From an uncultured Porphyromonadaceae bacterium (GTDB taxonomy: Bacteria; Bacteroidota; Bacteroidia; Bacteroidales; Muribaculaceae), in the NCBI GenBank assembly GCA_947175215.1, contig CAMWLR010000007.1, forward strand, positions 1 through 57,075: DNA of 57,075 nucleotides. The letters are read 5' to 3'. Position numbers and translations under genes: made by a program. Position 1 is the stretch's first letter, and every line of letters begins with the position of its first letter. Shown here in pieces: positions 5,132-36,458 of this stretch. The notes beneath the pieces were generated by a model, which saw nothing but the letters and a program-made list of their open reading frames with translations, had not been told where the DNA came from and ran no database searches.

Positions 5132-6838
5132 TCAGTCGGCCCGGCGAAGGATAGCTACCCGATTTATATATTCCGGGGGATAGACATAGCCTCCCTCAGT
5201 GACGATAGCTTTATGACCGGTATACAGATCGGTCAACTTACTACCTGCCTTATATATCCCTCTGACATCTATCCCCCGGGACACATCAGGTTTGAGACAG
5301 ATCAACACCGTGTCAGTATCGTTATACCGCATAACTCTATGGGTATCCAACGTTTTCTGCCTGCCGGTTGCTATCACGCGGTGGTCACGGCGTATCCGGC
5401 CTAACCTGCGGTAATGTGCCAGCAACGTGCTGTCCGTACTAATCCAGTTCATGTCAGAGCGGAAAGCCTGCGCACTGTCAACGTTGTACTGCGCATCACT
5501 GAGCCCGCGCCCCGTCTCATCGCCATAAAAAATCTGTATCGTACCGGGCGACAACAGTAATGTAGTTGCGCAGTCTGTCATGTTAGACATATCGGCATCG
5601 CGGTGATAGGAGTTGTTGAGGTAGCTGAACGGATGCCAGTCATTATGGACGGCAATACTATCGGCGTATGCTTGCCATGTGTACACGATATTATCAAGGT
5701 CGCCATGCTTGGGGAAATAGAAGTTTACAAGACTTGCGAAACCTGCATCGGCATATTCTGCTTTGCGGTCTATTGAGGCATCCTCATAGTCACCTGTCAT
5801 ATAGAAAGGTTCTTCCCAATCAGCCGCAGGTTCACCCTTATGCTTTTCACGCCAATGATTGAGAGCATCATTGCAGGCACTATATAATTCTTTCCAACGG
5901 TCAAGATGCACATTCTCGACGATGTCGCATCTAAATCCATCGATACCGAACTCCTCGATCCAAGATGTTATCCACCTGATAAGGTACTCCGTCGGGGAGA
6001 GGTCACGATCAACGCGTAACTCTCTTGCCGAGGGGTTGACCCACGGATCGTTGCTGTCTCCCTCACTATCCCATTTGCGGTGCAGAAAGGCCGGGATTGC
6101 CACAGTGTCTCTGCTCTCATCCTTAAAATCGGGCATACCGTAAACGGTCGACTGCAACGGATCATTCTCATCCCAGCCCTCATCAGGCATACGTATCCAT
6201 CCCCTGTCATACCATCCTGACCAGTTAAGCCGATCGGCAAAGAAGTCATCATAACTCCACTGCTTGATATGTTCTACCGCCTGAGCCTCGGTCAGCCCCG
6301 TATCGGTAAACCGATATTGCACGGCATCAAGTAGTGTGGGATAACCCGGGTCGTTGAGATTTGCGCCGAGCATCACTCTGATACCCTGAGAATGTAATGT
6401 GTCGACCAGTACCCTGAACTCCTCTGCCGTACCATAGTTCTTATCAATCTGAGTATAGTCGAGCGGATAATAGCCATGATAGCCGTAATGAGGAAAATCG
6501 TTGACTGACCCCGATCCGGTCATCCATCCGTGAATCTGCTCGTAGACATCGGTCATCCACACCACATCTACCCCAAGATCGGTAAAGTACCCCTCACGGG
6601 CCTTTTGAAGCAGACCTTTGAAATCTCCTCCGTGAAAGGTCGCTGCATTGAGACGCTCACTACCGTAATCAGTCTTGCGACCGTAGTTCACGTCATTAAG
6701 CGAATCTCCATTGCAAAAGCGATCGGTAATGACAAAGTAAACGGTCGCTCCTCCTTGGTCAAACTCTCCCTTTCCTGACCCGGATAGCATGGACGCCAGA
6801 CTCAATAACCCGATAATGCTTAGACAAATTCTTTTCAT
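5132..6838 (-). CDS. GH13 (alpha-amylase superfamily) protein with altered catalytic motifs
   Basis: A 568-aa exported protein; the N-terminus (MKRICLSIIGLLSLASMLS) is a signal peptide. The GH13 barrel is clear: YFVITDRFCNGD near the N-terminus, GGDFKGL, DGFRCD (residues 299-305, nucleophile Asp305) and SPGTIQIFYGDE. Overall it resembles periplasmic MalS-type amylases. Key positions deviate: region I, normally DxxxNH, reads GANLND (158-163); region III, normally with the acid/base Glu, reads MTGDYED (Asp350); region IV, normally xNHD or SHD, reads YLNNSYHRD (406-414). It may therefore be non-catalytic, a glucan-binding protein, or an enzyme with altered chemistry. It has its own promoter and is not in a recognisable starch-utilisation locus. 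Confidence 0.82.
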   Translation of the reverse strand: MKRICLSIIGLLSLASMLSGSGKGEFDQGGATVYFVITDRFCNGDSLNDVNYGRKTDYGSERLNAATFHGGDFKGLLQKAREGYFTDLGVDVVWMTDVYEQIHGWMTGSGSVNDFPHYGYHGYYPLDYTQIDKNYGTAEEFRVLVDTLHSQGIRVMLGANLNDPGYPTLLDAVQYRFTDTGLTEAQAVEHIKQWSYDDFFADRLNWSGWYDRGWIRMPDEGWDENDPLQSTVYGMPDFKDESRDTVAIPAFLHRKWDSEGDSNDPWVNPSARELRVDRDLSPTEYLIRWITSWIEEFGIDGFRCDIVENVHLDRWKELYSACNDALNHWREKHKGEPAADWEEPFYMTGDYEDASIDRKAEYADAGFASLVNFYFPKHGDLDNIVYTWQAYADSIAVHNDWHPFSYLNNSYHRDADMSNMTDCATTLLLSPGTIQIFYGDETGRGLSDAQYNVDSAQAFRSDMNWISTDSTLLAHYRRLGRIRRDHRVIATGRQKTLDTHRVMRYNDTDTVLICLKPDVSRGIDVRGIYKAGSKLTDLYTGHKAIVTEGGYVYPPEYINRVAILRRAD

Positions 6839-6853
6839 TGCGATTTTTTATCG

Positions 6854-6885
6854 CAAAATTACACACCCCTCACCTACTCTGCAAT
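6854..6885 (-). promoter_or_regulatory. Promoter of the GH13 gene
   Basis: TAATTTTG box at 6854-6861 with ATTG at 6882-6885, spacer 20 nt. The short leader contains a small GCGAT/ATCGC hairpin directly before the start codon, which could influence initiation. Confidence 0.6.
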
Positions 6886-6944
6886 ACTGAAAATTAACCA
6901 ACTCACTGGCACAGCGTACACTAAAAGATTACTATTCTAACCTC

Positions 6945-7718
6945 TTACAAAAGCTTCATGGCAATGGCGGCTGACACCGCTTCAATGCTATTGCCAACAC
7001 TGAGTTTTGATATTATATTCTGACGATGGCGGTTGACTGTATAGACGCTTATACTTAAAGCATCGGCAATCTGTTTGCTGGGTTTACCGTCACTGATCAT
7101 CCGCAATATCTGTTTCTCTCTTGAGGTAAGTATATTGTTGATCTTATCATTGAATGAGAGGCGCGTGATTGTCCCCGTCGCGGTGTTAACGATATGCGGG
7201 CAGATACCCTTGCGGTCATTCTCACAAGGCGATAATACATATCGGCAAAGTATCAACCAGATTTTGCCAAACGGCGACAGGCCGATTATCTGCGTGGTAT
7301 TGTAGACAACCCTGTACACCCCGGCATTATCCCGCATACGGATGCGGCAGGTTGCCTTTATACATTTTTTCTCACTCTCGTCAAGTGAATCGACTATCTT
7401 GAAGAACTCATATTCAAGCATCCTCTTCTCGGCGAGATCCTCGGGATGCAGACGATAGTATATCTCATCTTCATCACTTGAGTCTACCGGCTTACCGTTG
7501 ACCGTGTCACCGTCAAGACCTATTATCTGCCCAAGATCACCTGAGTAAATATAGCAACGGTCAGATGAGGCATCGGTTACGACTGAAATTCCGCCGTCAG
7601 ACTCAGCGATTACGCTTGCAACACCCCTTGCCCTCTCCACCTCGGCGGGGTCGAGGGTCTCATAATCAAGGTGCTGCGCAGCGTAAATCTGGTTGAGTTC
7701 CTTACGAAGTATGTCCAT
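6945..7718 (-). CDS. LuxR-type transcriptional regulator with N-terminal sensor-like domain
   Basis: A 257-aa protein (counted from ATG 7718; a TTG at 7736 would add six residues). The C-terminal 60 residues are a GerE/LuxR helix-turn-helix (LTSREKQILRMISDGKPSKQIA followed by TVNRHRQNIISKL). The N-terminal about 190 residues contain IYSGDLGQIIGLDGD and a stretch compatible with a PAS-like fold, but no conserved phospho-acceptor Asp, so it is not a classical response regulator. It is probably a one-component regulator sensing an unknown input. It follows recQ by about 30 nt on the same strand and may be co-transcribed with clpP-clpX-recQ. Target genes cannot be inferred. Confidence 0.8.
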   Translation of the reverse strand: MDILRKELNQIYAAQHLDYETLDPAEVERARGVASVIAESDGGISVVTDASSDRCYIYSGDLGQIIGLDGDTVNGKPVDSSDEDEIYYRLHPEDLAEKRMLEYEFFKIVDSLDESEKKCIKATCRIRMRDNAGVYRVVYNTTQIIGLSPFGKIWLILCRYVLSPCENDRKGICPHIVNTATGTITRLSFNDKINNILTSREKQILRMISDGKPSKQIADALSISVYTVNRHRQNIISKLSVGNSIEAVSAAIAMKLL

Positions 7719-7748
7719 CGTACAGTTGACCGGCAATTGAGACTGACA

Positions 7749-9929
7749 TCAGTTGCCCATCTCTGAGAGAAACTTGATACGCATCAGGCGTATCTCCTCC
7801 TCAGAATAATCCTTGCCAAGTTCTTTGATCGCCTCGTTAAGCGAGTCGGTCTCGGCCTCCTTGAAGTACTCAAAGATATCCTCTTGATGATCGTCGTCGA
7901 TAACTTCGTTGATAAAATAGTTGATGTTGATCTTTGTGCCTGCATAGACGATCGCCTCAATCTCGTCGAGCAGTTCGCCAAACTCCATACACTTTGAGTT
8001 GGCAAGCTCATCAAGATCTATCTTGCGGTCGATAGCCTGGATGATCGAGATCTTTATACGGCTCTTGTTTGCCACAGATCTCACTCTCAGATCCTCGGGA
8101 CGCTCGATCTCGTTCTCATCAACATGGGTCTTGATGACCTTGACAAACTCCTCGCCATATCGTTTGGCCTTGCCGGCGCCGACACCGGTGATATTGGCAA
8201 GTTCCTCGATAGTGATGGGATAGGTGGTGGCCATCGCCTCGAGCGATGGATCCTGGAATATCACATACGGCGGGAGATTGAGATGCTTGGCAATCTTTTT
8301 ACGGAGATCTTTCAGGATTGAATATAGCTCGGGGTCAACGGCGCATGATGCACCGCTCTTGACTACAACTTCCTCCTCTACCTCCGAGAAGTCATTATCC
8401 TCGACTACCTTAAAGGCAACAGGTTTTTTAAGATACTTCTTACCCTTTTCGGTGAGTTTTATCTGTCCGAAGTTCTCTACGTCGCGATCTAGATAACCGG
8501 CGATGGTAGCCTGCCTGATAACCGCATTGAGAAATTTGCGGTCAGTACCTTGTCCGCACCCGAAAACTTCGAGTTCGTTATGTTTGTAGGTCTTGACATC
8601 ATTAGTCTCTCTACCGACTATGACGTCAATGATGTGATCAGCCTTAAATTTCTCTTTCAAAGCCACGATGGTCTCCATCACGGCACATAAGTCTTCTTTA
8701 GCGTCCACTTGTTTCTTTGGATTTAGACAATTGTCACAGTTCCCGCAGTTATCTTCAGTATACTCTTCGCCGAAATAATGCAGCAGGGTCTTGCGGCGGC
8801 ATACCGATGACTCGGCATATCCGGCAGTCTCCTGCAAGAGATGGCGCCCGATCTCCTGCTCGGTCACAGGCTTGCCCTGCATAAACTTCTCAAGTTTCTT
8901 GAGGTCTTTAGCCGAGTAGAAGGTCAGACAGGTGCCTTCACCTCCGTCGCGACCCGCGCGACCCGTCTCCTGGTAATATCCCTCGAGTGACTTGGGCATA
9001 TCATAATGTATCACATACCTTACATCCGGCTTATCGATACCCATGCCGAAAGCTATCGTGGCTACGATAACGTCGACCTGCTCGAGCAGGAAAGCATCCT
9101 GATTGGCCGAACGTGTAGCCGAGTCCATACCGGCATGGTAAGGCAAAGCTCTGATGTTGTTGACCTTTAGCAGTTCGGCCAACTCCTCGACCTTTTTACG
9201 GCTGAGGCAGTAAATAATACCCGACTTGCCCTCGCGAGTCTTGATATACTTGATAATATCCCGATCTATGTTGGCTGTCTTGGGGCGTATCTCATAATAG
9301 AGATTGGCGCGGTTAAACGATGATTTGAAGACCATGGCATCGGTCATGCCGAGATTCTTCTGGATATCGTGCTGCACCTTGGGGGTCGCGGTTGCCGTCA
9401 GTGCTATTACCGGTCGTGGCCTGATCTCATTGATGATCGGGCGGATACGGCGGTATTCGGGACGGAAATCATGACCCCACTCAGAGATACAGTGCGCCTC
9501 GTCGACAGCATAGAACGAGATAGGGACTGTCTTCAAAAATTCAATATTCTCTTCTTTTGTAAGTGATTCCGGTGCTACATAGAGCAACTTGGTCTTGCCT
9601 GATATTACATCTGACTTGACTTGATCGACAGCAGACTTATTTAGCGACGAATTAAGGAAATGAGCCACGCCGTCATCTGCCGAGAAGTTGCGCATGGCAT
9701 CGACCTGATTCTTCATCAGAGCGATCAACGGCGAAATCACGATAGCCGTTCCCTCGGTCAGTAACGAGGGCAGTTGGTAGCAGAGTGATTTTCCACCGCC
9801 GGTAGGCATCAGCACAAAGACGTCATTGCCCTCAAGAAGTGACAACATGATGTCTTCCTGGTTCCCTTTGAATTTATCGAAACCGAAGTGCTGTTTTAGC
9901 GCAGAGGCAAGTTGTTGCTTTGTAGTCAT
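7749..9929 (-). CDS. recQ: ATP-dependent DNA helicase RecQ (long form with HRDC)
   Basis: A 726-aa superfamily 2 DNA helicase for 3'-5' unwinding during recombination and fork repair. Visible in order: Walker A MPTGGGKS, VDEAHCISEWGHDFRPEYR, helicase C-terminal motifs (QETGRAGRDG), the RQC zinc site (CRRKTLLHYFGE then NCGNCDNC), a winged helix, and an HRDC domain (LYSILKDLRKKIAKHLNLPPYVIFQD). A further helical tail of about 100 residues follows the HRDC. Domain order and length fit full RecQ. It lies downstream of clpX with a 124-nt purine-rich gap. A second, shorter RecQ is at 22330-24291. Confidence 0.93.
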   Translation of the reverse strand: MTTKQQLASALKQHFGFDKFKGNQEDIMLSLLEGNDVFVLMPTGGGKSLCYQLPSLLTEGTAIVISPLIALMKNQVDAMRNFSADDGVAHFLNSSLNKSAVDQVKSDVISGKTKLLYVAPESLTKEENIEFLKTVPISFYAVDEAHCISEWGHDFRPEYRRIRPIINEIRPRPVIALTATATPKVQHDIQKNLGMTDAMVFKSSFNRANLYYEIRPKTANIDRDIIKYIKTREGKSGIIYCLSRKKVEELAELLKVNNIRALPYHAGMDSATRSANQDAFLLEQVDVIVATIAFGMGIDKPDVRYVIHYDMPKSLEGYYQETGRAGRDGGEGTCLTFYSAKDLKKLEKFMQGKPVTEQEIGRHLLQETAGYAESSVCRRKTLLHYFGEEYTEDNCGNCDNCLNPKKQVDAKEDLCAVMETIVALKEKFKADHIIDVIVGRETNDVKTYKHNELEVFGCGQGTDRKFLNAVIRQATIAGYLDRDVENFGQIKLTEKGKKYLKKPVAFKVVEDNDFSEVEEEVVVKSGASCAVDPELYSILKDLRKKIAKHLNLPPYVIFQDPSLEAMATTYPITIEELANITGVGAGKAKRYGEEFVKVIKTHVDENEIERPEDLRVRSVANKSRIKISIIQAIDRKIDLDELANSKCMEFGELLDEIEAIVYAGTKININYFINEVIDDDHQEDIFEYFKEAETDSLNEAIKELGKDYSEEEIRLMRIKFLSEMGN

Positions 9930-10053
9930 GGGGAATCTTAAGGTTAGAGAGAAAGAAAATCTTTAGGAGAGAGCCGGAGAGAGAATAATCGAGAGAGATC
10001 GGTCACGGCACGCGACTATGAGAGAGACTGCGGACGATGAGTATCACCCGGCA
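9930..10053. other. clpX-recQ intergenic region with GAGAGA tracts
   Basis: This 124-nt gap holds several GAGAGA-type tracts on the plus strand (CTCTCT in the mRNA sense of the flanking minus-strand genes). I see no promoter box, hairpin or ORF in it. Confidence 0.5.
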
Positions 10054-11355
10054 TCAGTCTTTGGTGGTAACCGTGTCCTTATTGAGTTCGAAATGAGACT
10101 TGCGCAGTTTGTCAAGAACATACTCACCTGTTACCTCAAACTTCTTCATCTTGCCTGACGGCACCTCATACATCGCGTCAATCATGACGGTCTCAACGAT
10201 CGCTCTCAGGCCACGCGCACCGAGCTTATACTCGATTGCCTTGTCTACAATCATGTCGAGGGCCTCGGGGGTGAATGTCAGCTTGACACCATCCATTGCA
10301 AAGAGCTTTACATACTGGCGGGTGATGGCATTCTTGGGCTCGGTCAGCACGCGGCGCAGTGCATCGCGGTCGAGCGGATCGAGATGGGTAAGTATCGGCA
10401 GACGGCCGATAATCTCGGGGATAAGTCCAAACGATTTGAGATCCTGCGGAGCAACGTATGTCAGATAATTGTCTCGATCGATGCGGTTACGGCTGTCTGT
10501 CGAGTAACCTACGACATGAGTGTTGAGTCGCTGTGCGATCTTACGCTCGATACCGTCAAATGCGCCACCGCAGATAAAGAGTATGTCTTTGGTGTCGACG
10601 GGTATCATCTTCTGCTCGGGATGCTTGCGACCTCCCTGCGGAGGAACGTTGACAACCGATCCCTCAAGCAGTTTGAGCAGACCCTGCTGCACACCCTCAC
10701 CTGATACGTCACGGGTGATCGTGGGGTTATCGCCCTTGCGTGCGATCTTGTCTATCTCATCAATAAAGACGATGCCACGCTGCGCTTTGCTGACATCATA
10801 GTCTGCAACCTGTAACAGTCGCGTGAGCAAGCTCTCGATATCCTCGCCGACATAACCGGCCTGTGTGAGGACAGTCGCATCGACGATCGTGAAAGGCACA
10901 TCGAGCATCCTGGCGATAGTTTTAGCCAGAAGAGTTTTACCCGTACCGGTCGGACCGACCATGATGATGTTACTCTTCTCGATATCTACATCGGCCATCT
11001 CGCCCTCATCTTGATGTTTCTGAGCGAGTCGTTTATAATGGTTGTAGACCGCCACCGAGAGATAACGTTTGGCGCTGTCCTGACCGATTACATACTGATC
11101 AAGAAAGGCGCATATTTCTTTGGGTTTTGGTAATGTTGCAATATTAATGGCGTCTTTGTCACCTCCCTTGGTCACCTTGCCGGTCGACCGGCCTCCGGCG
11201 ACCTCATGCCGGTATTCACCGAGCAGTTCGTGAATCTGGTCTGCACATTCGGCGCACAGAAAAACCCCGGGCTGGATACCAGAGGGAATCAGCACCTCTG
11301 ACGCCGAACCGGGACGGCCACAAAACGCACAGGTTTCTTCTTTCTTTTTTGCCAT
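10054..11355 (-). CDS. clpX: ATP-dependent Clp protease ATP-binding subunit ClpX
   Basis: A 433-aa AAA+ unfoldase that recognises tagged substrates and feeds them to ClpP. The N-terminal zinc-binding domain has CAFC and CAEC pairs (residues about 11-14 and 35-38), followed by [11 protein letters not shown] (Walker A), FIDEIDKIA (Walker B) and the C-terminal sensor region. The ClpP-docking IGF loop is represented by VGYS, a variant I believe is usual in Bacteroidetes. The gene is 81 nt downstream of clpP with a structured intergenic hairpin and shares the clpP promoter. Length and motif order are normal. Confidence 0.96.
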
Positions 11356-30521: not shown

Positions 30522-30561
30522 GTGATTTTTCACGAAACACAGCTATTTATCACCTGATGAG

Positions 30562-32280
30562 TCAGCACAGCAATGCCACCACCATACCGGCGAGTATCAG
30601 TATGACACTGCTGACGGCGTATGTCACCGTATATCCCATCACAGGTAGTGTGCTGTCAAGGCTATCCTGAATTGCGCCTAATGCCGCTACCGCATTTCGG
30701 CTGCCGGCCACACATCCTAACGAAACCGCTGCCGGGAATTTAAACAATTTATTGGCAACATAGATCGATATAACAAGAGGGATGGTCGTGCAGGCGACAC
30801 CGACAAGAAATAGTCCAGGTCCGACCTCCTGCAGACCGCTTATAAATGACGGGCCGGCAGAGAGACCTACCACTGCTATGAACAAGTTAAGCCCTGCATT
30901 GTCCATAAACCATATCACCGGACGGGGGATATGTCCGAATGAGGGCCGTTTTGACCTTAACCACCCCAATATCAAGCCCGAAATAATTGCTCCGCCGCTG
31001 GTGCTGAGTGAAAGCGGGATACCCCCGCATTTAATAACGATAGCACCCAATAGACACCCGATAGCTATACCCAAGCCGGTAAACACCATGTCTGTCTCAT
31101 AAGTCGGGCGGTCGCTGTAACCGATTTCGGGTACAGCCGAGTCTACATCCTCAGGCAAACCTACCAGAGTAATCACATCACCTTTCTCAAGTTTGAGCCT
31201 GCGCTTTAATGGCATCGGCATATCATTCCTGAGCAACTTATGTATCGTTACACCGTGCATAAACGACTTATTGCGCAATTCTCCTAACGTAATGCCGGCA
31301 GCCCCTGATTTTGAGACCACAACAGGGAGGTTCTCTGTACCGAAAGTCAGCAGCTCATGGTCTGAAACCTCACTGCCGATCCACCCGGCATCCTTAACAA
31401 TACTCTCGCGACGGCCACTCAGCACGATAATATCACCCTTATGCACACGCGTATCAGGATCAGGATCCATAATCTCGCCGTTGATTCTGAGACGTTCGAC
31501 AAAGTGCCGCAATTCGAGAGTCTTGAGATGACGTTCTATTTCTCTGACAGTACGCGGTTTATCGAAATACTCCGACTCTACCTTATAGGCGCGGAACGAC
31601 ACAGGGCGGTTTGCTATTATCTGCCCCGGCTCAGGGGTAAAATCGCCCGAGTCCAATTCCTCCTCAAGTTTTACCGTCTCAGCCTTTACTTTTTTCAGGC
31701 CTCCCAATAAGATCGGCCCGAGATTGGCAATTATCCATGCCGACCCGACAGTGCCAAACACGTAACACACAGCATAACAAGCCGGGATAATATCAATCAG
31801 CTTAGTCGCCTCATCACCGGGCAAGCCCAACGATCTGATAGTATCTGACCCCACACCGATCACGGCCGAGACCGTCTGAGCGCCGGCAAAGATTCCCACT
31901 GCGATCCCCTTGTTATAGCCTAAAAGCCGACATATCCCCACCGTGACGCCGATGATGATAACGCACTCGACCAAGGCAAAACAGATCTGTTTTAATCCGT
32001 CACCCCTGAGCGAACGAAAGAACTGCGGACCTACGCTATATCCGATAGCAAATAAAAAGAGCATAAAAGCAAGAGACTTGACAGTCTCCGAAATCGGTAT
32101 CACCACCTGCCCTATCAACACCCCCACAATCAGTGTCGATGTCACAGGGCCGAGAGAAAAAGATTTGAACTTCAAACCGCCTAACCAAAATCCCAATCCC
32201 AAAGTAAGAAAAATCGGGATAACCTGATTCTGACGGAAAACCTCTACAAACCATTCTGCTATCTCAGCAATCCATTCCAT
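30562..32280 (-). CDS. AspT/YidE-type transporter with two RCK_C domains
   Basis: A 572-aa inner-membrane protein of the aspartate:alanine exchanger family. Two hydrophobic halves (about residues 18-195 and 385-572), each bearing the AspT/YidE duplication (LFLFAIGYSVGPQFF and LFIAVVGLSAGPSFI), flank a cytosolic segment with two TrkA-C/RCK_C domains (about 215-300 and 305-385). The family exchanges carboxylates such as aspartate, alanine or succinate; the substrate here is unknown. It has its own promoter and is next to the AAA+/channel island. Confidence 0.85.
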   Translation of the reverse strand: MEWIAEIAEWFVEVFRQNQVIPIFLTLGLGFWLGGLKFKSFSLGPVTSTLIVGVLIGQVVIPISETVKSLAFMLFLFAIGYSVGPQFFRSLRGDGLKQICFALVECVIIIGVTVGICRLLGYNKGIAVGIFAGAQTVSAVIGVGSDTIRSLGLPGDEATKLIDIIPACYAVCYVFGTVGSAWIIANLGPILLGGLKKVKAETVKLEEELDSGDFTPEPGQIIANRPVSFRAYKVESEYFDKPRTVREIERHLKTLELRHFVERLRINGEIMDPDPDTRVHKGDIIVLSGRRESIVKDAGWIGSEVSDHELLTFGTENLPVVVSKSGAAGITLGELRNKSFMHGVTIHKLLRNDMPMPLKRRLKLEKGDVITLVGLPEDVDSAVPEIGYSDRPTYETDMVFTGLGIAIGCLLGAIVIKCGGIPLSLSTSGGAIISGLILGWLRSKRPSFGHIPRPVIWFMDNAGLNLFIAVVGLSAGPSFISGLQEVGPGLFLVGVACTTIPLVISIYVANKLFKFPAAVSLGCVAGSRNAVAALGAIQDSLDSTLPVMGYTVTYAVSSVILILAGMVVALLC

Positions 32281-32336
32281 TATCCAAATACATCTTAATA
32301 ATTTCCGATTAACAATCTAACTCAAAAATCCGGCTG

Positions 32337-32344
32337 CAAAGATA
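32337..32344 (-). promoter_or_regulatory. -7 box for the AspT-like transporter
   Basis: TATCTTTG on the minus strand, about 55 nt before the ATG at 32280 and just 17 nt beyond the stop of the AAA+ gene, so the transporter has separate transcription. Confidence 0.6.
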
Positions 32345-32361
32345 CAAATCTTTCAGGACAC

Positions 32362-35300
32362 TCACGGTATATCTTCTTTTGTGATTTCAGTGAGATCCTC
32401 TTCTGTCAGCGATGAAAGCTTAGATGAGGTGAGTCGCCGAGCCTGTCGTTCAAGAGTTTTCTCAAACAGATTACGGACAAATCTTGCGTTACCAAAGTGT
32501 TTATCTTTGTTGTCTACCGCTTCAGCTATAACCTCATTGATTGCCTCCCAGGCTTCGGGTGTCATCTTGTAATCATATTTTGCAAGATTAAACTTATATA
32601 TCGAAGCCAACTCATCTGCCGAGTAATCATCGAAATGGATATAGCGGCTAAATCGGGATTGTAGCCCGGGATTAGAATTGAGGAACTGTTGCATTTCATC
32701 GGAATACCCTGCCAGGATGACGACAAGTCGATCACGGTTATCTTCCATCCTTTTAAGTAGGGTCGCGATCGCTTCAACACCAAAATCGTTACCTGCTATA
32801 TTTTGAACAAGTGAATACGCCTCGTCTATGAACAGAACCCCGTCAAGCGCCGAGTCAATTATTTTATTAGTTTTAACTGCGGTCTGACCGACATACTCTG
32901 CCACCAGACCCGATCGATCGGTCTCGATAAGATGGCCTTTTCGGAGTATCCCCAGCCTCTTATATATTTGGGCTACCATGCGCGCGACGGTAGTTTTTCC
33001 CGTGCCGGGATTCCCTGTAAAAACGCAATGGTAAGAGATCTGCGGGACATTCAATCCTTTGGCAACACGCACCTTTTGAATTTTAACCAGATTATAAATA
33101 TTGGCAATGTCGATCTTGACCCCGGTCAACCCTATCAAGTCGTCCAACTCTTTCATAGGATCAGAGATATTTTTACGTTGTACTTTTTTGGGCGCTACCT
33201 TAGTAGTCTGTTCCCCATTATCTGATGCATCACGACTTTCGGACGGGTCTAATGTCAGGCTGCCCCGACTTAGCAAACTCTCCAATTTTAACGCATCTAT
33301 CAGTATGTCTCGTGGATTCCCTCCTTGTGCCGGTCCAATTATACCTGTTGTCTCAAGTTCATCCATTATTTTCCCGGCCCGATTGTACCCGATACAAAAA
33401 CGGCGTTGAATGCCAGACGTAGATGCAATCCCGGATGTAACGATGTATCGCGCCACATCAGCAAACAGATCGTCTGTCATCTGAGGAAGCTGAATCGTCT
33501 TTGAGCTCGGACAATAATCTGAGGTCTCACCGATACTACTATTCGTAAAACTAAGAATATTTGTTAGCCAATCCTGTTCGGTCTTTGAGATATGACCGTC
33601 AGCTTTGGCTATCAAGAGTGCATAACGATAAAGCAACACTGCCCACTTATTGACCGTTTCATCGTCCACACCCTCATGACGTAGCATTTCTATAAGCAGT
33701 AATCTATCCGGATCATATTCTATATGGAGATGATTCTTGACGAGATTATAGCATTCTTCAAGATGTTTAGTACCCTTTTCTGTCATAATAAGTGATTGAT
33801 CGTTGCAGACCATATTATCAGACAACAGTATGCGCGATAATATGATACCTATCGCGCGGCCCTCATCAGTTGACATATCGGGGCGATGACCTAATTTATT
33901 GAAACACTTGACAAGATCTGTTACGGCCACTACTGCCAGTCGCTTATCTATAACTCCTCCACCAATATTCAGTTCTAATGCCTTGTCGAGTTGCTTCTGA
34001 TCATCAAGAATCTCCAGGATTTGCTTATCAGATGACATCTCAACGAGACACAAATATAACTTCTCTGCAGCTTGAATAATTTCAGCAAGCGAAAAACAAT
34101 CACCACTAATCGGATTTGATGCAATAGCCTGCGTAGTGGTGGCGGGAATTACTTTTGACTCAGCAGTACTATCTCCTTTATCAAAGTCTCTGACTACACT
34201 TGAAAACTTATTGAAAAACAAACAGAACTGTCGTGTCGAGTTGGGGTTGCTCACCTGGAACGTAACAGACAGTTTACCTTTGATTATCAAGTTAATACCT
34301 CCATAGGACACAACAGAGATCTGTCGGTTGTTGGCATATCTGCGGTCGGGACTACCATCCTTGTTAACATACTCCCATGTCGTACCGATCTTCTCAGCAT
34401 CCGTGGGATACGCTCCGGGCTCTTGAAAACTTATTGGAGTATATTGTAAAGATATATCGGCATAATCTACGATTTCAAACTGTGCAGGTGTCGTGGATAA
34501 TATTCCATATTGAGGGTAAAGGTACAGCAGTTGATTGCCAATCGGAATGACCGGTACATCATATTTGGTTTGGATATAGTTGAATACCCCCACCCCAAAT
34601 ACTGTTTCCTGCAAGGATACTAATGAACCAGCCGAAGACTTGGCTACGGTATTCCGTAATTTGGATGCCTGAATCCATATTTTTTCTGCTGTCAGCAATT
34701 GCTCAAAAGATTGGCAGAGATGCTCATACAAAGGGACAACCTCTGCAGGCACAGACTCGTCAACATCATATTTTGTTGATTGGAGTTTGCGCCTGAGGGC
34801 GTTCAACTCCGTAATATGTTCACTTATTACCTCTGCATTCTTCCTTGGATTTTGGTTGAGTGACGCTAGTATCTTTTCTTCATCATCAATAGCGTCAATT
34901 ATCTCTACCGTATTGATGAAATTAGATAAAATCTTTTTTTCTCTCTCATTGGCCGAACGGGTAAAAGCCTCTTTTGCATCTGAGAGAAAAGAGAGAGACT
35001 CATTATGTTGAGTAGCATTCTTACCATAATATTTTTTACGGTTGGTGAGGTTTCCCCAGACACCCAGACCAAAAATAAATGTTCCGATAAGTCCGACTGG
35101 CGCGACCGCCAGACATGCAAGGGCTGTGACTCCACATAATACTGCTGTAAAAGTATATGTGCCCTTGGCATGGATTTTAGGCATATTAACCTGCTGAGCG
35201 GAATAACTTATATGTGGCATCGATGCGGCTCCCCCACGCTGACGGGTATAGAAGCCGGTCCCGGGCACACCTGTATTAATATATGTGCCGTTTTTGCCGA

Positions 35301-35409
35301 ATGTCATACTCGCCCCACGCACTCCAGCCGAAGTGTTGATACCGTTTTTACTAATATCCATATAAACGCCCGATGCGACCTTTACACGTTTTCTATATCG
35401 CGTTGCCAT
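32362..35409 (-). CDS. DUF4236 - TM - TerB-like - FtsK-gamma-like - AAA+ (CbbX/SpoVK class) protein
   Basis: A 1015-aa multidomain protein I cannot match to any named system. In order: DUF4236 at residues 1-55 (RKRVKVASGVYMDISKNG, NTGVPGTGFYT); a two-helix transmembrane hairpin at about 83-120; a charged helical region (140-260); a beta-rich module (about 265-405: TTWEYVNKDGSPDRRYANN); a helical segment with a TerB-like core at 590-620 (ALLIAKADGHISKTEQDWL); an FtsK-gamma-like winged helix at 647-706 (SGIQRRFCIGYNRAGKIMDE); and a complete AAA+ module of the CbbX/SpoVK/EccA class at 755-1000, with Walker A GNPGTGKTT (799-807), Walker B LFIDEA (859-864), sensor 1 around ILAGYSDE, an Arg finger in LQSRFSRY and sensor 2 GNARFVRNL. 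All ATPase residues look intact. It starts 4 nt after the channel gene, so the two are translationally close. Base composition looks AT-richer than the neighbours, suggesting transfer. Confidence 0.85.
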   Translation of the reverse strand: MATRYRKRVKVASGVYMDISKNGINTSAGVRGASMTFGKNGTYINTGVPGTGFYTRQRGGAASMPHISYSAQQVNMPKIHAKGTYTFTAVLCGVTALACLAVAPVGLIGTFIFGLGVWGNLTNRKKYYGKNATQHNESLSFLSDAKEAFTRSANEREKKILSNFINTVEIIDAIDDEEKILASLNQNPRKNAEVISEHITELNALRRKLQSTKYDVDESVPAEVVPLYEHLCQSFEQLLTAEKIWIQASKLRNTVAKSSAGSLVSLQETVFGVGVFNYIQTKYDVPVIPIGNQLLYLYPQYGILSTTPAQFEIVDYADISLQYTPISFQEPGAYPTDAEKIGTTWEYVNKDGSPDRRYANNRQISVVSYGGINLIIKGKLSVTFQVSNPNSTRQFCLFFNKFSSVVRDFDKGDSTAESKVIPATTTQAIASNPISGDCFSLAEIIQAAEKLYLCLVEMSSDKQILEILDDQKQLDKALELNIGGGVIDKRLAVVAVTDLVKCFNKLGHRPDMSTDEGRAIGIILSRILLSDNMVCNDQSLIMTEKGTKHLEECYNLVKNHLHIEYDPDRLLLIEMLRHEGVDDETVNKWAVLLYRYALLIAKADGHISKTEQDWLTNILSFTNSSIGETSDYCPSSKTIQLPQMTDDLFADVARYIVTSGIASTSGIQRRFCIGYNRAGKIMDELETTGIIGPAQGGNPRDILIDALKLESLLSRGSLTLDPSESRDASDNGEQTTKVAPKKVQRKNISDPMKELDDLIGLTGVKIDIANIYNLVKIQKVRVAKGLNVPQISYHCVFTGNPGTGKTTVARMVAQIYKRLGILRKGHLIETDRSGLVAEYVGQTAVKTNKIIDSALDGVLFIDEAYSLVQNIAGNDFGVEAIATLLKRMEDNRDRLVVILAGYSDEMQQFLNSNPGLQSRFSRYIHFDDYSADELASIYKFNLAKYDYKMTPEAWEAINEVIAEAVDNKDKHFGNARFVRNLFEKTLERQARRLTSSKLSSLTEEDLTEITKEDIP

Positions 35410-35413
35410 AATA

Positions 35414-36142
35414 TTATACCTCTATATTTTTATTCTTTATCTTTTCCACAGTCTGCAAATAACTTGCAGTGATAACGCCCGAGGGCAACGCTATGATAGC
35501 CACACCTACAAGCGACGACAGCATACTGATAACTTTTCCTACATCATTATGTGGATAAACGTCTCCATATCCTACTGTCGTCAATGCCGAGGTTGCCCAA
35601 TAAAGAGCATCAAAGAAGGTTTCAAACTTGTCATCAACGCTAAACATCAATAATGCCGTTAAGATGATGTAGAAAATTGCGAGAGTAAGTACAGACAAGA
35701 GAACCGATCGTTGCTGCCTGAGTACCTGCATGAAGATACCCAATTCCTTTGAGTATCTCCCAAATTTGAGAAGTCTGAATATTTTGAACAGGCGCGTAAT
35801 CCTGAACAGATGGAATGCCTCATTAATGACAGAGAATGTTGGCAATATCGATAGCATATCAATAATCGCCATCGGCGTCACGGGATATAGCAAAAAACTG
35901 ATCCATCCCTTTCGCATTTTGAAATCAGCTGTAAGCCAACGCAATACATAGTCAATAATAAACAGACAGACACAGGAATATTCGAGTCCCGCAAAGAACG
36001 GAGTATATTTTCTGAATGCCAGAGGCACAAGGCTCAAGACAATAGCAACGAGCTGGAAATAGTCATAAATGCGACTATCCCGTGAACTATTGTTATCATA
36101 CGGCGTAACGATCAAATATATCCGATGTCTAAAACTGTTCAT
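35414..36142 (-). CDS. Voltage-sensor-type potassium channel (6TM ion transporter)
   Basis: A 242-aa protein from ATG 36142 (a GTG at 36163 would add seven residues). It has six transmembrane segments; S4 (residues 111-129, HLFRITRLFKIFRLLKFGR) carries Arg or Lys at every third position six times (114, 117, 120, 123, 126, 129), a strong voltage-sensor pattern. The pore has the potassium selectivity filter TTVGYGD (188-194). No long cytosolic RCK or cyclic-nucleotide domain follows S6, only a short charged tail. It lies 4 nt upstream of the AAA+ gene and shares its promoter, so channel and ATPase probably act together. Confidence 0.88.
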   Translation of the reverse strand: MNSFRHRIYLIVTPYDNNSSRDSRIYDYFQLVAIVLSLVPLAFRKYTPFFAGLEYSCVCLFIIDYVLRWLTADFKMRKGWISFLLYPVTPMAIIDMLSILPTFSVINEAFHLFRITRLFKIFRLLKFGRYSKELGIFMQVLRQQRSVLLSVLTLAIFYIILTALLMFSVDDKFETFFDALYWATSALTTVGYGDVYPHNDVGKVISMLSSLVGVAIIALPSGVITASYLQTVEKIKNKNIEV

Positions 36143-36243
36143 TATATTCTTACAGGAAATCACAATATCGCCTGATAGTTAACTGCGGTGGCAGTGAGTA
36201 CTCATATTATATCAATATTTCATCATGGATAAAGAGAGGTTTG

Positions 36244-36251
36244 CAAAGTTA
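36244..36251 (-). promoter_or_regulatory. -7 box for the channel - AAA+ operon
   Basis: TAACTTTG on the minus strand, about 100 nt upstream of the channel ATG. The surrounding 295-nt gap between the divergent operons is strongly AT-rich and holds no ORF. Confidence 0.6.
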
Positions 36252-36369
36252 ATAAATTTTTTCATGACTCTGATTATACGCCGTCTATGACTGCTATAAC
36301 CCACCCATCAATTCTTTTATCATTATCATTTTATTGTGGTTTAATTTATGATTTTTTGAGAATTAGGGT

Positions 36370-36400
36370 TTTGGTGTTAAGTAAAAAGGTAGTAACTTTG
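36370..36400 (+). promoter_or_regulatory. Promoter of the rhomboid operon
   Basis: TTTG (36370-36373), a 19-nt spacer and TAACTTTG (36393-36400): a full sigma-ABfr consensus about 58 nt before the first rhomboid ATG. Confidence 0.8.
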
Positions 36401-36458
36401 TAGGATATAAATCACTTAAAGTGAATATTAAGAACCGATAAAAGGAGAATACTGCGAT

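Follow-up and report, generated by a model that had tools for sequence, protein, structure and literature searches.

We analysed a stretch of 57,075 nt from an uncultured gut bacterium labelled Porphyromonadaceae, but probably one of the Muribaculaceae (contig CAMWLR010000007.1, positions 1 to 57,075, hereafter the window), and found that it carries, on the minus strand, the gene of a predicted voltage-gated K+ (Kv) channel followed by the gene of a 1015-aa protein that joins a DUF4236 domain to an AAA+ ATPase. The same two kinds of gene recur side by side in relatives, and a functional link between channel and AAA+ protein is well supported by these neighbourhood comparisons. With moderate confidence, we read the pair as a mobile membrane response module of the Ter type, in which a DUF4236-anchored AAA+ protein with TerB-like and DNA-reading parts would control, or be controlled by, the voltage-gated channel. 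Coordinates are given in Table 1.

The pairing was examined from the side of each gene, in relatives that were mostly contigs of metagenome-assembled genomes (MAGs; L and G numbers designate loci). For the AAA+ protein, a scan of named genomes confirmed at least 571 relatives; the best 80 of these make up the census, to which all AAA+ counts below refer. It was split into 16 rows with DUF4236, gamma or a conserved domain that we call 'mid' (see below), and 64 plain rows without any of these. A Kv channel gene lay at most 2 genes away in 9 of the 16, and in none of the examined flanks of the 64 (Fisher p 4.9e-8, which is not a strict probability, as the rows are related). The AAA+ gene was close to the end of the available flanking DNA in 16 of the 80. 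Two plain loci had a Na/Ca-type channel, L193 in an operon-like run, and L224, where the channel is on the opposite strand, ~1.5 kb from the AAA+ gene, and was not counted as a partner.

For the channel, 43 of 397 genomes of the window's family had it, at 44 places. Among the 42 readable loci, window included, a DUF4236/mid/TerB-like/AAA gene stood directly beside the channel at 6, and a TerY_C gene was nearby at 4. ORF calls were mechanical, and L145, L155 and L395 were left out of the counts because the channel gene had been missed in the ORF selection. Some loci figure in two collections (L176/L063, L183/L061, L193/L067, L227/L071 and some others); L061 and L063 of the channel census are L183 and L176 of the AAA+ census, so that two of the 6 channel loci recur among the 9 AAA+ loci. 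In L074-L076, a short DUF4236 protein is paired with the channel. At L136, whose channel is sister to that of the window, the 115 nt before the contig edge showed no DUF4236 start. At the scale of the phylum, the channel was found in 24 of 296 genomes and DUF4236 in 11 of 70 sampled (the window's genome included); DUF4236 adjoined the channel in one (G560) of the 22 readable loci among the 23 other than the window's. On plasmids, 94 records matched the channel. Ten neighbourhoods were opened and, their annotation being incomplete, rescanned with a DUF4236 profile. DUF4236 was at most 3 genes off in two, from Hymenobacter and Aristaeella (Clostridia), and the profile gave no match in the other 8 stretches. 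The proximity of DUF4236 and Kv channels thus extends beyond Bacteroidia. Conversely, the DUF4236 loci examined were mostly without a channel within 1.5 kb.

Gene order varied among the paired loci. The channel comes first in the window, L174, L181 and L229, first with a TerB-like gene in between in L192 and L199, last in L179 and L183/L061, and last with one intervening gene in L175, while channel and AAA+ gene converge in L176/L063. Genes found in between are TerB-like or of a small zinc type. Together with the contrast of 9 of 16 to 0 of 64, this varying order leads us to reject chance adjacency. A first-pass annotation of the window, made from its letters alone, had proposed that the two genes belong together; their recurring linkage bears this out, and the opposite finding, AAA+ homologues that never neighbour a channel, did not occur.

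Several observations nevertheless weigh against our reading. The pairing is not obligatory, as both genes mostly occur unpaired among the relatives sampled: 32 of the 42 family channel loci have neither a DUF4236/mid/TerB-like/AAA gene nor TerY_C, and a Kv channel is missing at 71 of the 80 AAA+ loci, including 7 of the 16 domain-rich ones. Nor are the linkages all independent. In the channel tree, one starred clade of 14 rows holds 10 paired channels, with L061 and L179 close by and L063 elsewhere; the firm branches require only one change, and several branches are long. A single old pairing followed by later losses may account for this pattern. Further, the TerB homology of the 1015-aa protein is partial, Pfam TerB giving no match in it, and the flanks of paired loci are mixed, with no clear defence islands. 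The high proportion of unpaired homologues is what would be expected if two independently mobile genes had simply landed together, but recurring adjacency, shuffled order, short gaps, the census contrast (p 5e-8) and the presence of DUF4236 near channels in distant taxa make such a coincidence very unlikely.

In the window, the TAA of the channel gene precedes the ATG of the 1015-aa ORF by 4 nt, as first annotated. An element upstream of the channel resembles the Bacteroidetes -7 element, and another -7-like one lies between the AAA+ gene and the gene that follows it. Because of these two elements, the layout suggests a two-gene operon, whose genes would be co-transcribed. The GC content is 0.434 for the AAA+ gene and 0.401 for the channel gene, compared to 0.492 for the whole window, and their GC3 values (0.411 and 0.452, respectively) are the lowest of the 44 window ORFs of at least 150 aa (mean 0.570, SD 0.051), so that the pair is indeed AT-richer than its surroundings. 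Neither the channel (threshold E 1e-25) nor the N-terminal piece of the AAA+ protein (E 1e-5) was found in any of 13 other congeners, some of whose genomes are incomplete. The two genes flanking the 5.9-kb block that holds the pair are directly adjacent in 3 of the 10 congeners examined; the remaining 7 have a different neighbourhood, cut short by contig ends in two. The low GC3 and the empty site in congeners indicate that the pair is acquired and accessory. Acquired cargo was what the first pass had expected; core composition with universal vertical conservation, which would have spoken against it, was looked for and did not occur, and a universal core operon is rejected, since channel and N-terminal piece were found in none of the 13 congeners, some of them incomplete.

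The block also holds a transporter gene, presumably AspT/YidE-like, of which a 54%-identical paralogue exists elsewhere in the genome, on C13. Only one distant match to it was found among the scanned ORFs (L142), so it was not retained as a third partner and is probably a separate passenger.

Table 1. Features of the acquired block and its two-gene unit (positions in the window).
Feature	Position	Strand	Basis or remark
5.9-kb block (transporter, AAA+ gene, channel gene)	30541..36458		missing between same flanking genes in three congeners
Transporter	30562..32280	(-)	ordinary GC3, own -7-like element
Presumed -7-like element TATCTTTG	32337..32344	(-)	between AAA+ gene and next gene
1015-aa DUF4236/membrane stretch/mid/TerB-like/FtsK-gamma/AAA+ protein	32362..35409	(-)	ORF and profile searches
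AAA_lid_6, residues 951-1014	32368..32559	(-)	E 1e-18
AAA+ core (Pfam AAA), residues 796-927	32629..33024	(-)	E 1.5e-18; Walker A GNPGTGKTT, Walker B LFIDEAY
FtsK-gamma winged helix, residues 645-704	33298..33477	(-)	PF09397, E 5e-23; IGYNRA helix kept
TerB-like segment, residues 458-619, motif AKADGHISKTEQDWL	33553..34038	(-)	conservation in relatives, half-domain profile match
Mid domain, residues 227-400	34210..34731	(-)	motif W..VNKDGSPDrR...N; conserved in relatives
Hydrophobic stretch, residues about 86-120	35050..35154	(-)	one or two membrane passes
DUF4236, residues 4-56	35242..35400	(-)	PF14020, E 1e-15 (5e-17 in second search)
Kv-type six-helix voltage-sensor channel	35414..36163	(-)	249 aa from GTG; Ion_trans E 3e-26, Kv relatives
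K+ selectivity filter TVGYGD	35561..35578	(-)	read as TTVGYGD in channel protein
S4 voltage-sensor helix	35747..35803	(-)	seven basic residues, every third position
Presumed -7-like element TAACTTTG	36243..36250	(-)	upstream of channel

Profile searches confirmed DUF4236, the FtsK-gamma-type winged helix and the CbbX/SpoVK-class ATPase, all three read from the letters at first pass, as parts of the 1015-aa protein. As for the transmembrane hairpin, the protein does have a single long hydrophobic stretch after DUF4236, and a hairpin within it is possible. The gamma domain shares 57% identity with its counterpart in the host FtsK, whose motor was confirmed. The 1015-aa protein thus has gamma and its IGYNRA helix in common with the FtsK translocase, but not the alpha/beta motor: Pfam gave no FtsK_SpoIIIE or FtsK_alpha match in the 1015-aa protein, which rules out that it is an FtsK paralogue. 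Elsewhere in the family, a 625-aa protein (L070:432-2309, minus strand) has an N-terminal DUF4236, a complete FtsK alpha/beta motor and gamma.

The CbbX/SpoVK-type module covers residues about 750-1014, with both Walker motifs intact, and core and lid both give significant matches. The solved structures of CbbX and EccA1 match it, and the NCBIfam models SpoVK, EccA and CbbX match residues 742-1014 at 1e-77 to 1e-88. These scores lie below the respective equivalog cut-offs (293.8 bits against 423 for SpoVK, 279.3 against 467 for EccA, 260.4 against 459 for CbbX), so a plain orthologue of any of the three is ruled out. AAA+ core and lid are what the protein has in common with these ATPases, whereas its DUF4236, membrane, mid, TerB-like and gamma parts fall outside their matches.

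The mid domain was overlooked in the first reading. Its invariant columns in 15 aligned relatives are P72, G125, D128 and N134 (numbered along the window segment in the alignment). A ~375-aa DUF4236-mid family (phrog_17982), which also occurs on phage contigs, can be aligned to residues 1-430 at 25-28% identity; its members stop short of TerB-like, gamma and AAA+ parts, and the 1.5-kb flanks examined around their genes held no channel. Pfam gave no match on one mid protein (L147), and a PDB search with the domain returned nothing convincing. An Arthrobacter plasmid protein annotated as 'TerB N-terminal domain-containing' matches the mid profile at E 1.5e-31 and our own TerB profile at E 2.5e-14.

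Of the 80 census proteins, 35 have the TerB-like segment ahead of their AAA+ module; a TerB-like segment had been proposed at first pass. Among relatives, Pfam TerB matched 3 of 15 (best E 0.029, weak), the TerB-type structure 2ou3 matched the segment at E 0.11 (weak as well), and hhalign aligned segment and TerB at 87% over 27 columns only, i.e. half a domain, compared to 0.4% for the mid profile used as a control. A strong TerB assignment was given up after these matches. The half-domain match stands, and TerB occurs fused to DUF4236 or beside it in relatives: one viral-contig protein (L254) has DUF4236, mid and TerB (1.8e-5), DUF4236 and TerB genes are separated by one small ORF in L490 and L493, and in L192 and L199 the separate gene that stands between those of the channel and the AAA+ protein has sub-threshold Pfam TerB matches (E 3.5e-4 and 0.01). 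Since direct homology is weak while the context is supportive, we keep the wording 'TerB-like'.

The Ion_trans domain, the filter and the S4 of a voltage-gated K+ channel are present in the 249-aa ORF. The likely start is the ATG at 36142, which gives about 242 aa. The filter and the regular spacing of basic residues in S4 were as annotated at first; only their number differs, being seven (R121, R124, K127, R130, K133, R136, K139) where six had been claimed. The closest solved structures are the animal Kv2.1, Kv4 and KQT channels, and the prokaryotic structures 2a0l/1orq, which we take to be KvAP, match at about 1e-11. The Ion_trans fold, S4 charges and TVGYGD filter are shared with such presumably KvAP-like prokaryotic channels; compared to these, the window channel adjoins a DUF4236/AAA+ gene, and Pfam gives no additional cytosolic domain. 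A 46%-identical Kv channel is encoded by the gut phage Dulem virus 33 (L473:5007-5714), beside Xre-type HTH genes and with an integrase nearby.

Some relatives carry additional genes. In L229, a Paludibacteraceae MAG, positions 6022-10997 encode a Na/Ca-type channel, a TerB-like protein, a Kv channel, a DUF4236/TerB-like/AAA protein and an Endonuclease_NS nuclease, with gaps of at most 12 nt. An Endonuclease_NS gene is present in three operons (L229, L174, L175); that of L229 begins with a signal-peptide-like stretch, which suggests that the nuclease is exported. The nuclease of L163/L164, three genes off among sugar-type genes (labelled by eye), was not counted as a partner. L067 has a Na/Ca-type channel after a TerB-like/AAA gene and a TerB-like gene. 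A gap of ~470 nt separates the channel of L149 from a TerY_C gene, after which come kinase, vWA and PP2C genes; L158 looks alike (by eye only), and TerY_C is also near the channel in L147 and L150, with a mid protein in L147. The gap between channel and TerY_C genes is ~400-470 nt in L149 and L158, and also in L147 and L150. In the isolate Leyella stercorea An906 (L180:3667-7891), a DUF4236/gamma/AAA+ gene stands beside a Schlafen AlbA_2 gene, not a channel, and in L390 the gene after those of DUF4236 and a Kv channel encodes a TIR/SEFIR-looking segment (a label given by reading the sequence only).

The likeness to Ter-type (TerB/TerY-P) systems lies in the TerB-like segment, in mid, which also occurs in a TerB_N-annotated protein, in TerB genes near DUF4236 and TerB-like genes beside channels, and in a related channel locus that has TerY_C, kinase, vWA and PP2C genes nearby. 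The window pair differs from them by its voltage-gated channel and its DUF4236/FtsK-gamma/AAA+ fusion, TerB itself being weak. In our reading, voltage-gated channels as partners would set it apart among Ter-type modular response systems.

An abortive-type or anti-phage role, as raised at first pass, is thinly supported. Phage DNA or a phage signal would be recognised, the channel would open, K+ and potential would be lost, and the nuclease of some loci would destroy DNA; we hold this possible, though on the unlikely side. It agrees with the sporadic, acquired distribution, with the nuclease gene in three operons, with the Schlafen-type gene beside the L180 relative, with the occurrence of DUF4236-mid proteins and Kv channels on phage contigs, and with a TerY-P-like triad close to a related channel. 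A role as metal-sensing switches has been hypothesised for triads of this kind, and an anti-phage function is reported for a related form (PMC11090510). PADLOC, on the other hand, gave generic AAA matches only for the window AAA+ protein, none for the window channel, and generic AAA or kinase matches only for the system's proteins overall, so that no named defence system can be given to the pair. For the neighbours, 72 of 78 prepared proteins, from 11 paired loci, were scanned. They matched 28 PADLOC families, each in one or two proteins, including mad3, mad8 and candidate families, some of which speak for defence, but the 25 commonest of their 96 Pfam families are largely housekeeping, and ten large neighbours (four of L176 and six others) gave no PADLOC match at 1e-10. 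Moreover, a gamma domain like that of the host's FtsK would be an unexpected means of recognising foreign DNA, and the L229 nuclease would, from its signal-peptide-like start, be exported.

A stress or homeostasis module is unlikely as well. There, a voltage- or K+-triggered channel and a membrane-remodelling ATPase would respond to osmotic, envelope or potential stress, with no role against phages. This would suit a channel that mostly occurs without these partners, and Ter proteins are described as ligand-sensing, membrane-response components (PMC7824862), but it offers no ready explanation for a nuclease or for a domain that reads DNA, and the sporadic distribution in the family speaks against it.

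We return to the Ter-type membrane module, in which contact between the two proteins, the way that control runs, the signal and the outcome are all inferred. The DUF4236/hydrophobic N-terminus would hold the 1015-aa protein in the inner membrane beside the co-encoded Kv-type channel; DUF4236 is taken as the membrane- or channel-side anchor because, together with a membrane segment, it accompanies the channel both on its own (L074-L076, G560) and in fused form. A stress or invader signal would be received by the mid and TerB-like domains, TerB and TerD being described as ligand-binding and possibly signal-sensing in systems with responding membrane parts (PMC7824862). The winged helix would dock the protein on DNA, probably at the motif read by the host's FtsK; docking on the chromosome is plausible since the IGYNRA helix is kept and the domain resembles that of the host. 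Powered by ATP, the C-terminal AAA+ ring would then remodel either the channel or a partner close by, and thereby alter K+ flux and membrane potential. Control could run either way, the AAA+ protein gating the channel or the channel's voltage informing the AAA+ protein, and growth arrest, protection against invaders, or relief of membrane or osmotic stress are candidate outcomes. The first-pass proposal of an ATPase tethered to the membrane, which would sense DNA or stress and gate the channel, is plausible.

Among the papers listed in our searches of the open-access literature, which did not cover most subscription journals or preprints outside PubMed Central, we found no report linking DUF4236/AAA+ proteins with TerB and Kv channels. 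In several lineages, DUF4236, a domain of unknown function, is now placed close to TerB and to Kv channels. The pairing is more general than the single window suggested, and as the partners are kept while their parts are shuffled, the two probably work together. In a bolder form, which we consider improbable, they would belong to a bacterial excitability module, where a Ter-type, DNA-aware AAA+ machine governs voltage-gated channels, L229 being the fullest form and the window a reduced, K+-only version. If so, the sensing of damage or invasion would be converted into a change of membrane potential that drives the response, including the apparently exported nuclease of L229. To our knowledge, the reason why bacteria retain voltage-gated channels is still largely open. 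The recurring pair provides such a channel with a testable partner, and with the hypothesis that membrane potential may be under ATP-driven or DNA-informed control.

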